A DNA stretch of 64,000 bases, from NCBI GenBank assembly GCA_000237975.1, contig CP003179.1, positions 1,860,001 to 1,924,000 on the forward strand. Reading direction: 5' to 3'. The DNA is from Sulfobacillus acidophilus DSM 10332 (GTDB lineage: Bacteria > Bacillota > Sulfobacillia > Sulfobacillales > Sulfobacillaceae). Below are positions 57,927-61,045 of this stretch, piece by piece (position 1 is the stretch's first letter; each line of letters begins with the position of its first letter). The notes beneath the pieces were generated by a model. That model did no database searches. It saw nothing but the letters and a program-made list of their open reading frames with translations, and was not told the DNA's origin. Both the position numbers and the translations under genes were made by a program.

Positions 57927-58781
57927 ATGAGTGCGCATCGCCAGTGGGGAGCCCGGGTGCGTCAACTCCGGGAGGCCAAACACTGGTCTCAGCAGCAGTT
58001 AGCCCAGAAACTCAAAGTATCCCAAAAACATCTCTCGCGCTTGGAACACGGAGATGTCTTGCAGGTGGAACGCGATCTGCTGATTCGCATCGCGGAGGTT
58101 TTAGGCGATCCGTTGGCCTCGGGGGAACTTAATCAGTGGCTTTATGGGTTTGGCTACCGCCCCCATGTCCTGCCCCAGTTGCCGCTCCCGCCCGATTATC
58201 AGAGTCTTTTGGACGCGTATTTGCCGTATCCCGCGTCCATCATTGATGTGGGCTGGTTTATCCGTTATTGGAATCGCGCCATGGAACGTTTTTACCGGAT
58301 GCCCAACGGACATCTTAAAGGGCTGGGCCAAAACTGGCTGGTGCAATATTTTCATCCTCAGGGGGTTTTGCGGCACACCTATTCGTCCGAATCCATTCGG
58401 CGGGTATTGGGACGTCTTTTCTGGGAATGGTATGCCTATTACGACGAGCCGTGGAATCGCGATTTGCGACAAGCCTTGGAAAAATTGCTGGGATTGACCT
58501 GGGAAGGCTTGATCGAACAATATCGGTTGCCGATTCCTCCGGTTCCGCCCCCATGGGATGAGCCGGTCTGGTTACGCCAAGGACCCGGGCTCTCGCCGTT
58601 GCGGTTTCGGGCCGTCTATGCCCGGGTGCCGCATCGACCGGATTTACGCATTACCGTCTATGAACCGGATGAGCCCTTAGCCCGTGCGTGGTGTGAACGA
58701 GACGGCTCATCGCGTCTCTATCGTGTATCAACGGAGGAAATCAAGTGGCCTCACTCAACGGAGACTTGGCCCGTCGGTTAA
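57927..58781 (+). CDS. XRE-family regulator with MmyB-like ligand domain
   Basis: 284 residues. N-terminal helix-turn-helix (VRQLREAKHWSQQQLAQKLKVSQKHLSRLEHG, residues ~8-40), then a linker (PPDYQSLLDAYLPYPASIID) and a PAS-like MmyB domain marked by WFIRYWNRAMERFY and YYDEPWNRDLRQALE. It probably senses a small, hydrophobic ligand. ATG 57927 behind ACGAGGGGGG. Ends inside the start of the Sec-containing AhpF-like gene (37-base overlap), so it may control that gene. Confidence 0.82.
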   Translation: MSAHRQWGARVRQLREAKHWSQQQLAQKLKVSQKHLSRLEHGDVLQVERDLLIRIAEVLGDPLASGELNQWLYGFGYRPHVLPQLPLPPDYQSLLDAYLPYPASIIDVGWFIRYWNRAMERFYRMPNGHLKGLGQNWLVQYFHPQGVLRHTYSSESIRRVLGRLFWEWYAYYDEPWNRDLRQALEKLLGLTWEGLIEQYRLPIPPVPPPWDEPVWLRQGPGLSPLRFRAVYARVPHRPDLRITVYEPDEPLARAWCERDGSSRLYRVSTEEIKWPHSTETWPVG

Positions 58782-59353
58782 GCCGGATCCGCCGTCCGCT
58801 CACCCTGCGATTGGTCGGCCCCGATGGCGTGTCCCGGCAGGCTATCCGAGAGGTGTGGGAGGGAATCGTCCCGGCGACGGTGACGATACGGGAGGAGACG
58901 GGTATTCCGCTCCATATGACGTTACACGACGCCGAACAGTCTTTAGGTGTCCGGTTTTGGGGTATTCCCGGCGGATTTGTCCTCGAGTCGGTCGTGTACG
59001 CCCTCGAACTTTTGGGGGACTTACGCCCCCCGCTCCACGACTCTCAAGCCGAAAAGGTGTTGTCGGCGTTGCCCGCTACGCTCTCTCTCGAACTCTATGT
59101 CGGCGCTACGTGAGCGTTTTGTCACCAGATGGTCCATCTGGTAACTGACGTATCGCGGCTCACGCCCCGTATCCGGTGTGACATTATTCCGGTTGAGCAA
59201 TTTACCGAAAAAAGCCAAGCGGCAGGGATACGCAAAACGCCCACGCTGTTCGATCCGACAACCGGCCAAGCGTTAGTCGCCAACGTCCCCATGCGCCATT
59301 TGGTCGGATGGCTCTATCAAACCGCGTGGACGGCGGCTATGTCCGATATTTAA
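58745..59353 (+). CDS. Selenoprotein: stand-alone AhpF N-terminal-like thioredoxin-fold protein
   Basis: GTG 58745 (GGAGGAAATCAA upstream) opens a frame that meets an in-frame TGA at 59111-59113 and continues in the same frame to 59353. Read as selenocysteine (codon 123) the product has 202 residues and the redox motif U-A-F-C (123-126). It follows the N-terminal domain of AhpF (double thioredoxin fold; E. coli redox pair near 129-132): SLGVRFWGIPGGFVLESVV matches GVRFVGSP-x-GHEFTSLV, LELYVGAT precedes the motif like ETYYSLS, and RKTPTLFD holds the cis-Pro. A hairpin after the TGA fits a SECIS. Expected to reduce a peroxiredoxin; the flavin part of AhpF is missing, so the electron source is unknown. 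A genuine stop at 122 would leave a half protein. Confidence 0.85.
59121..59145 (+). promoter_or_regulatory. SECIS-like hairpin after the UGA of the AhpF-like gene
   Basis: ACCAGAT (59124-59130) pairs with ATCTGGT (59136-59142); G-T/A-C extends it with one mismatch. Apical loop GGTCC begins 17 bases after the UGA. The E. coli fdhF SECIS has a GGUC apical loop about 18 bases after its UGA, and bacterial SECIS models ask for a G in the first two loop bases. Confidence 0.75.
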
Positions 59354-59647: not shown

Positions 59648-60109
59648 TTATCTGGTATTCGGTGGCGCTAGCTCTTGCAGGCGATCCAAAACCGCCTGAT
59701 AGTGTTCCGGATTGCCGGCTTGAAACGTCCGATTTTCGAACACCGGGCCCTCTTGAGAGGTGAGCACAAATACCGAACGCCGGGCGATGCCGCGGGTCTC
59801 GTCATAAACGCCATATTGAACCGCAATTTGCCGCATCCAATCCGAAGCGAGGGGAAACGGCAATCCGCCGAGACTCCTCTGAAAAATGTCCAGCGCATAA
59901 ATGTGGTCCGTACTCACACCGACCAATTGGGCGCCGACCGCTTGGATCACGGGGTAGTGCGTCTTCCAGACGACTAGCTCCTGCGTTCACCCACCGGTGA
60001 ACGCCATGGGAAAAAACGCCACCACCAGCGGGCCCTGACCGAGGACGGTCCGTGTATTAAAGTCGCCTTGGGTTGAATTTGCTTGAAAATGCCACGCATT
60101 CGCTTCCAC
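59648..60109 (-). CDS. Selenoprotein: peroxiredoxin with Sec as peroxidatic residue
   Basis: GTG 60109 (GGAGG eight bases before it, directly after the cysK stop) starts a frame with an in-frame TGA at 59987-59989 (codon 41) that continues to 59648, 153 residues in all. Around it the product reads VVAFFPMAFTGG-U-TQEL, an exact P-x3-T-x2-C/U peroxiredoxin active site. Downstream LVGVSTDHIYALDIFQR, FPLASDW and the catalytic Arg in GIARRSVFVL complete an AhpC/Bcp-type fold of normal length. There is no cysteine in the whole protein, so it is a 1-Sec peroxiredoxin needing an external reductant, perhaps the AhpF-like partner. A SECIS-like hairpin follows the UGA. Translation from the GTG at 59950 alone would give an N-terminally truncated, inactive protein. 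Confidence 0.88.
59955..59976 (-). promoter_or_regulatory. SECIS-like hairpin after the UGA of the peroxiredoxin gene
   Basis: Minus strand TAGTCGTC pairs with GACG-(C)-ACTA (one bulged C); apical loop TGGAA, or GGA if T-A pairs, begins 18 bases after the UGA. Position and G in the loop fit bacterial SECIS rules. The stem is shorter and less perfect than in the AhpF-like gene. Confidence 0.65.
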
Positions 60110-61045
60110 CTACAACGCCTCCGTCTCCGTTTGAAAAATATTGGCCAGATAGTTGCGGCCGGTATCCGGCAACAAGGCGACCACCCACCCCGGTCGTTCA
60201 ACCGTTTCGGCCACTTGTAACGCCACGTGTACCATGGCTCCGGACGATCCGCCCACCAAAAGCCCTTCTTCCCGTGCCAATCGGCGGGCCATTGCAAACG
60301 CATTGTCATCGGAGACGGCAATCCAGCGGTCAACCACTTCCGGATCGAGGGTATCGGGATAATAGTCCTCCCCCATCCCTTCAATCTTAAATGGAGCGAC
60401 GGGACCGGTGAAAATCGAACCGACCGGATCGGCACCGACAATTTGGATACCGGGATCTTGTTCTTTGAGAAAACGGCCGATACCGGTAATGGTGCCGCCG
60501 GTACCGGCACCCGCGACGACCGCGGCAATGTGGCCTCCGGTATCCCGCCAAATTTCCGGGCCCGTGGTGTCGTAATGGGCCTCGGGGTTGGCCGCATATA
60601 AAAATTGCCCCATGTAGGCTCCCCCCGGAATTTCGTCGGCCAACCGACGAGCCACCGCTTGGTAGTGGTGGGGATCGTCTTTGGGAACATCCGGCACGAC
60701 AGTCACCTGAGCCCCATAGGCTTTCAAAATCCGGATTTTATCCGGACTCATTTTGTCCGGAACGACAAACCAGCTCCGATAGCCCATGACCGCGGCGGCC
60801 ATGGCCAACGCAATGCCGGTATTGCCGGCCGTCGCTTCCACCAATGTTCCTCCCGGTTTGAGACGGCCATCGGCTTCCGCTTGCCGGATCAGGCGAACAG
60901 CAACGCGGTCTTTAATGGAACCGCCGGGATTGACGGCCTCCAATTTCACCGCGACGGGCCGCGGCGATCCCTCTGCAATGCGATTTAACCGGATCAACGG
61001 CGTATTGCCGATTGCCTCCAATACACTGGATAACACGCGTTCCAC
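60110..61045 (-). CDS. cysK: Cysteine synthase (O-acetylserine sulfhydrylase) family
   Basis: PLP beta-replacement enzyme of 311 residues. PLP lysine in EAVNPGGSIKDRVAVRL, substrate loop EATAGNTGIALAM, phosphate loop GAGTGGTITGIGRFLKE, and late GGSSGAMVHVAL. Makes cysteine from O-acetylserine and sulfide; the related cystathionine beta-synthase or CysM cannot be excluded (GMGEDYYPDTLDPEV). GTG 61045. Its stop TAG abuts the GTG of the Sec peroxiredoxin, so the two are coupled. Confidence 0.9.
   Translation of the reverse strand: MERVLSSVLEAIGNTPLIRLNRIAEGSPRPVAVKLEAVNPGGSIKDRVAVRLIRQAEADGRLKPGGTLVEATAGNTGIALAMAAAVMGYRSWFVVPDKMSPDKIRILKAYGAQVTVVPDVPKDDPHHYQAVARRLADEIPGGAYMGQFLYAANPEAHYDTTGPEIWRDTGGHIAAVVAGAGTGGTITGIGRFLKEQDPGIQIVGADPVGSIFTGPVAPFKIEGMGEDYYPDTLDPEVVDRWIAVSDDNAFAMARRLAREEGLLVGGSSGAMVHVALQVAETVERPGWVVALLPDTGRNYLANIFQTETEAL

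Follow-up and report, generated by a model that had tools for sequence, protein, structure and literature searches.

A predicted selenocysteine-containing, AhpF N-terminal-like protein encoded near a predicted selenocysteine peroxiredoxin in Sulfobacillus acidophilus

The window analyzed here is a stretch of 64,000 nucleotides of the Sulfobacillus acidophilus DSM 10332 genome (contig CP003179.1, positions 1,860,001 to 1,924,000), and the locus of interest comprises a regulator gene, a gene with an in-frame TGA and three genes on the opposite strand (Table 1). Readthrough translation of the TGA-bearing gene yielded one continuous frame of 202 codons followed by TAA, exactly as proposed in the initial annotation. 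The single interruption falls at residue 123 (ELYVGAT-U-AFC-HQMVHLV), i.e., at the position that opens the redox motif U-A-F-C, and automatic ORF calling stops the frame there, at 59113. The GTG start codon is located within the end of the upstream helix-turn-helix (HTH) gene, and the two genes overlap by 37 bp; they are therefore probably carried on one transcript and translationally coupled. A promoter scan of the sequence gave matches no more numerous than those in shuffled sequences, and terminator-like sites exceeded those in shuffles by a modest margin only.

Table 1. Genes and sequence features of the locus (positions are those of the window; counts refer to type-A loci, defined in the text).
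Feature	Position	Strand	Remarks
HTH regulator with MmyB-like ligand-binding domain	57927..58781	+	Pfam HTH_31 1.3e-10, MLTR_LBD 1.8e-9; 14/23 type-A loci
Ribosome-binding site ggagg	58733..58737	+	7 nt before GTG 58745; read from the sequence
Predicted Sec-containing stand-alone AhpF-N/PDO-like protein (type A)	58745..59353	+	202 aa, Sec123, UAFC; readthrough translation, NCBIfam, 20 Sec and 3 Cys loci
In-frame TGA, predicted selenocysteine codon	59111..59113	+	Relatives examined have TGA or a Cys codon at the aligned position
Bacterial SECIS hairpin	59124..59142	+	Stem 59124-59131 with 59135-59142, loop GTC 59132-59134; fold and covariation
Small conserved protein, 95 aa	59337..59624	-	Convergent with the Sec gene; 18/23 type-A loci
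Sec-peroxiredoxin	59648..60109	-	PMAFTGGU (PxxxTxxU), TGA at complement of 59987-59989; Pfam AhpC-TSA 9e-20; 12/23 type-A loci
Cysteine synthase/cystathionine beta-synthase-like protein	60110..61045	-	NCBIfam, Pfam; 20/23 type-A loci

The small protein encoded convergently with this gene had no Pfam or NCBIfam match; its N-terminal half is hydrophobic. The peroxiredoxin gene beyond it carries a TGA at the peroxidatic position (FFPMAFTGG-U-TQE), is split by ORF callers, and represents a second predicted selenoprotein gene in the window that was absent from the initial annotation. Its product resembles the Sec-peroxiredoxin family (PxxxTxxU) in its AhpC-TSA domain and in the placement of Sec, but contains no Cys anywhere and scored 43.8 bits against the PrxU cut-off of 270.

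The readthrough protein matched NCBIfam TIGR02187 (PDO_seleno_TRX) over residues 55-169 only, with an E-value of 3e-13 and a score of 49.5 bits, which is below the curated equivalog cut-off of 185. Significant matches to the same model were obtained for all 12 type-A members scanned (best E-value 1.8e-31). Homology to the AhpF N-terminal double thioredoxin fold had been proposed on both sides of the TGA, and was borne out by alignment to the AhpF model TIGR03140 (1.5e-12, residues 8-170) and by PDB chains of AhpF-like N-terminal proteins, which match across the TGA at 1e-10; the Pfam match by itself was sub-threshold. A profile built from the 12 branch members recovered structures of the protein disulfide oxidoreductase (PDO) and AhpF type, i.e., 1a8l (7e-27), 6il7 (4e-25) and 1hyu (5e-19), and covered both thioredoxin halves (1zyn 1-176, 2ywm 9-191), placing the branch in the double thioredoxin fold superfamily. 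A single-sequence AlphaFold2 model of the protein was of low confidence (pLDDT 58.6). Invariant in the 12 members are T122, residue 123 as U or C, C126 and P166, giving the motif Thr-(U/C)-x-x-Cys; P166 occupies what we read as the thioredoxin cis-Pro position.

These alignments also delimit the protein from its known counterparts. Like the N-terminal domain of AhpF (1hyu, 4o5q), it has one redox motif, located in its second half, but it is a stand-alone protein with Sec in place of Cys, and it ends at residue 202 without the FAD and NADPH domains, in agreement with the earlier statement that the flavin domains are missing. Archaeal PDOs (1a8l, 1j08) are likewise stand-alone double thioredoxin folds of similar length. 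They are defined by CxxC in both halves, however; 1a8l carries an additional N-terminal redox-motif half, whereas the first half of the window protein has no Cys before Sec123.

A search of the complete genome (3,557,831 bases, two contigs) detected all four genes of the selenocysteine machinery, on whose presence the initial annotation had made its reading depend: selA (551 bits), selB (339 bits, above cut-off), selC, for which the candidate tRNA-Sec was the top match and exceeded the gathering score (73 bits), and selD (357 bits; C1:1401608-1402540). The selD gene is itself interrupted by an in-frame TGA, consistent with a Sec-containing selenophosphate synthetase.

No relative was found by tblastn of the genome contigs with the single protein; relatives were obtained through a whole-genome search, in which 47 of 61 genomes gave matches, mostly with exactly one internal TGA. 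In a broader set of 299 genomes of the phylum, roughly half of the matches that exceeded the TIGR02187 cut-off contained a TGA. The branch containing the window protein, which we term type A, comprises 23 homologous loci, with TGA in 20 and Cys in three at exactly the same position (e.g., FVAPT-U-AFC in one relative) and conservation on both flanks. The region after the TGA, loss of which in relatives had been named as grounds for abandoning the selenoprotein reading, is therefore conserved, and the gene has the hallmarks of bacterial selenoproteins: an in-frame UGA, flanking homology on either side of it and homologues with Cys at the same column. Phylogenetic analysis separated clade A (24 rows, 100/100 support), which holds the window protein, from clade B (30 rows), which contains the more typical family members, including a second copy in the S. 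acidophilus genome. A Cys form (L050), about 40% identical, is the sister of the window protein in the tree, and Cys forms arise at two separate places within clade A.

The gene neighbourhood also differs between the two types. The frequencies for type A given in Table 1 derive from a manual tally that includes the window, and are lower bounds because several contigs are short. The cysteine synthase, small protein, HTH and peroxiredoxin genes were all absent from the surroundings of the three type-B loci for which wide windows were available; glutaredoxin genes together with metallo-beta-lactamase-fold or DUF302 genes lie there instead.

A hairpin with a GGTCC loop beginning 17 nt past the TGA had been proposed as a SECIS element, and was recovered as described; closure of the terminal G-C pair reduces the loop to GTC, at 18 nt. 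The hairpin lies just 3' of the UGA and has a G within its apical loop, as bacterial SECIS elements do. The 53-nt segment folded at -23.5 kcal/mol (z = -4.2 versus dinucleotide shuffles). When compared with synonymous recodings of its own peptide, however, the hairpin stood out only modestly (p = 0.04 for energy, p = 0.20 for stem length), since the palindrome is already written into the peptide QMVHL. The same control showed single genes to deviate only mildly, with the palindrome encoded by the peptide itself (QMVHL or RAVRL). Because the peptide accounts for part of the hairpin in each sequence, we did not rely on the single-gene z-score. Across 36 different Sec sequences, a stem of seven pairs is retained with a loop that begins with GU at a fixed distance of 18 nt past the UGA; 93.3% of pair cells are formed, versus 25-41% in slid controls, five of the seven pairs have changed on both sides, and the covariation score was matched by no shuffle. 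Pairing was lower in 12 Cys homologues than in the Sec sequences (p = 5e-7, in a test that ignores relatedness). The family-wide evidence thus makes a convincing case, at the level of sequence comparison, that the SECIS hairpin is real, and the recoding result is compatible with a SECIS constraint on the peptide that Cys homologues have abandoned more often.

Together, the sel genes, the Sec/Cys column and the covariation support the initial interpretation of a Sec-containing stand-alone AhpF N-terminal-like protein, and the gene very probably encodes a selenoprotein that acts as a thioredoxin-like reductant. Were the TGA instead a genuine stop, it would mark a pseudogene, an error in sequencing or the end of a truncated, 122-residue protein, in keeping with where automatic ORF calling ends; against this stand the recurrence of TGA at this catalytic column in 20 loci of the branch, with Cys in others, the conserved downstream half, the covarying SECIS and the complete Sec machinery, and we consider it exceedingly improbable. 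Reading of the TGA as another amino acid (Trp or Cys), through a changed code or suppression, would draw on the fact that the frame is open whatever residue the codon specifies. This too is highly unlikely, given the presence of selC, selA, selB and selD and of the hairpin, and given that homologues exchange the TGA only with Cys codons. Both pseudogene and changed code were rejected because of this comparative evidence.

For the selenoprotein, we propose that SelB and Sec-tRNA would insert selenocysteine at UGA 59111, directed by the hairpin that starts about 10 nt downstream, as the comparative sequence data suggest. The product would be a small selenoprotein of double thioredoxin fold in which only the second half holds a redox motif, Sec123-x-x-Cys126. 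By analogy with its family, it would serve as a thiol/selenol-disulfide reductant in the manner of the isolated AhpF N-terminal domain: Sec would attack an oxidized partner, Cys126 would then resolve the bond, and recharging would fall to a putative thioredoxin-reductase-type flavoprotein encoded elsewhere. The conserved gene order suggests a peroxide- and thiol-stress module that may be controlled by the upstream MmyB-like regulator.

By established peroxiredoxin chemistry, a 1-Sec peroxiredoxin without an internal Cys that could resolve its selenenic acid requires an external reductant, and for the peroxiredoxin of the window the adjacent UxxC protein is the obvious candidate. Among peroxiredoxins beside type-A genes, TGA was present in all nine compared, the window's included, and seven of the nine were Cys-free; close homologues in the relatives searched had TGA in 22 of 22 cases, two of which have an additional stop within the aligned region. 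On the strength of this neighbourhood and conserved gene order, we tentatively regard the Cys-free 1-Sec peroxiredoxin as the most likely client. It is quite possible, though somewhat short of an even chance, that the two selenoproteins form a dedicated relay with its own MmyB-like regulator, in which the UxxC protein reduces the peroxiredoxin and QMVHL is conserved partly to spell the SECIS palindrome. Ten genomes, however, have a type-A gene without a close Sec-peroxiredoxin, and in other genomes the peroxiredoxin occurs without an adjacent type-A gene; the peroxiredoxin is therefore not obligate and the link not exclusive. These ten genomes would sit well with a selenoprotein whose main clients lie elsewhere, i.e., a general disulfide/persulfide reductant tied to cysteine and sulfur metabolism, as would the position of cysteine synthase as the most constant neighbour (20/23) and the metallo-beta-lactamase-fold, glutaredoxin and DUF302 genes adjoining a type-B paralogue. 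Set against such a role, which might well be correct but falls somewhat below an even chance, the adjacent peroxiredoxin is always a Sec form and usually Cys-free, and the known cysteine synthase reaction requires no reductant.

A 'homolog of AhpF, amino-terminal domain' was tabulated among bacterial selenoproteins in 2006, with members in Carboxydothermus and Symbiobacterium (PMC1794560), and the family is listed as predicted under 'Homolog of AhpF N-terminal domain (Grx-like)', TIGR02187, with UxxC (PMC9312934, PMC13188914); this kind of protein is thus known. With members of that family, e.g., ABB15282.1, the window protein shares the double thioredoxin fold, the lack of flavin domains, the UxxC motif and a prediction based on UGA plus homology. 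It differs in its score, in forming a separate, fully supported clade and in having its own gene neighbourhood. The Sulfobacillus literature that we searched mentions a Sec formate dehydrogenase (PMC4378227) and an increase of the Sec-peroxiredoxin PrxU on ore (PMC7409299), but not the AhpF-N-like selenoprotein family. The divergent type-A sister branch and its locus appear to be undescribed in the literature searched, whose coverage excludes many subscription papers, and what seems new is the neighbourhood of MmyB-like regulator, small gene, Cys-free Sec-peroxiredoxin and cysteine synthase. A divergent, regulator-linked branch is thereby added to a predicted selenoprotein family, in a lineage sparsely covered by the selenoprotein literature searched, and the conserved pairing of two predicted Sec proteins provides a concrete redox-partner candidate for the TIGR02187-type family. 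The genes flagged here are ones that standard annotation would label broken.

Further family members were observed in the same genome. The type-B Sec paralogue (L045:5665-6354; C1:1555664-1556353, minus strand) scored 184 bits against the TIGR02187 cut-off of 185, and adjoins genes for glutaredoxin, DUF302, a CsoR-type repressor and a metallo-beta-lactamase-fold protein that we read as persulfide-dioxygenase-like. A third TGA-bearing member (L090:7820-8416) has the motif TTPGUPRC, and about 6 kb from it lies another TGA peroxiredoxin (L090:1135-1626, PLAWTPVUTHE). Finally, a member at C1:1719365-1719991 (minus strand; L091) carries CAHS in place of U/CxxC, and has therefore lost the resolving Cys.
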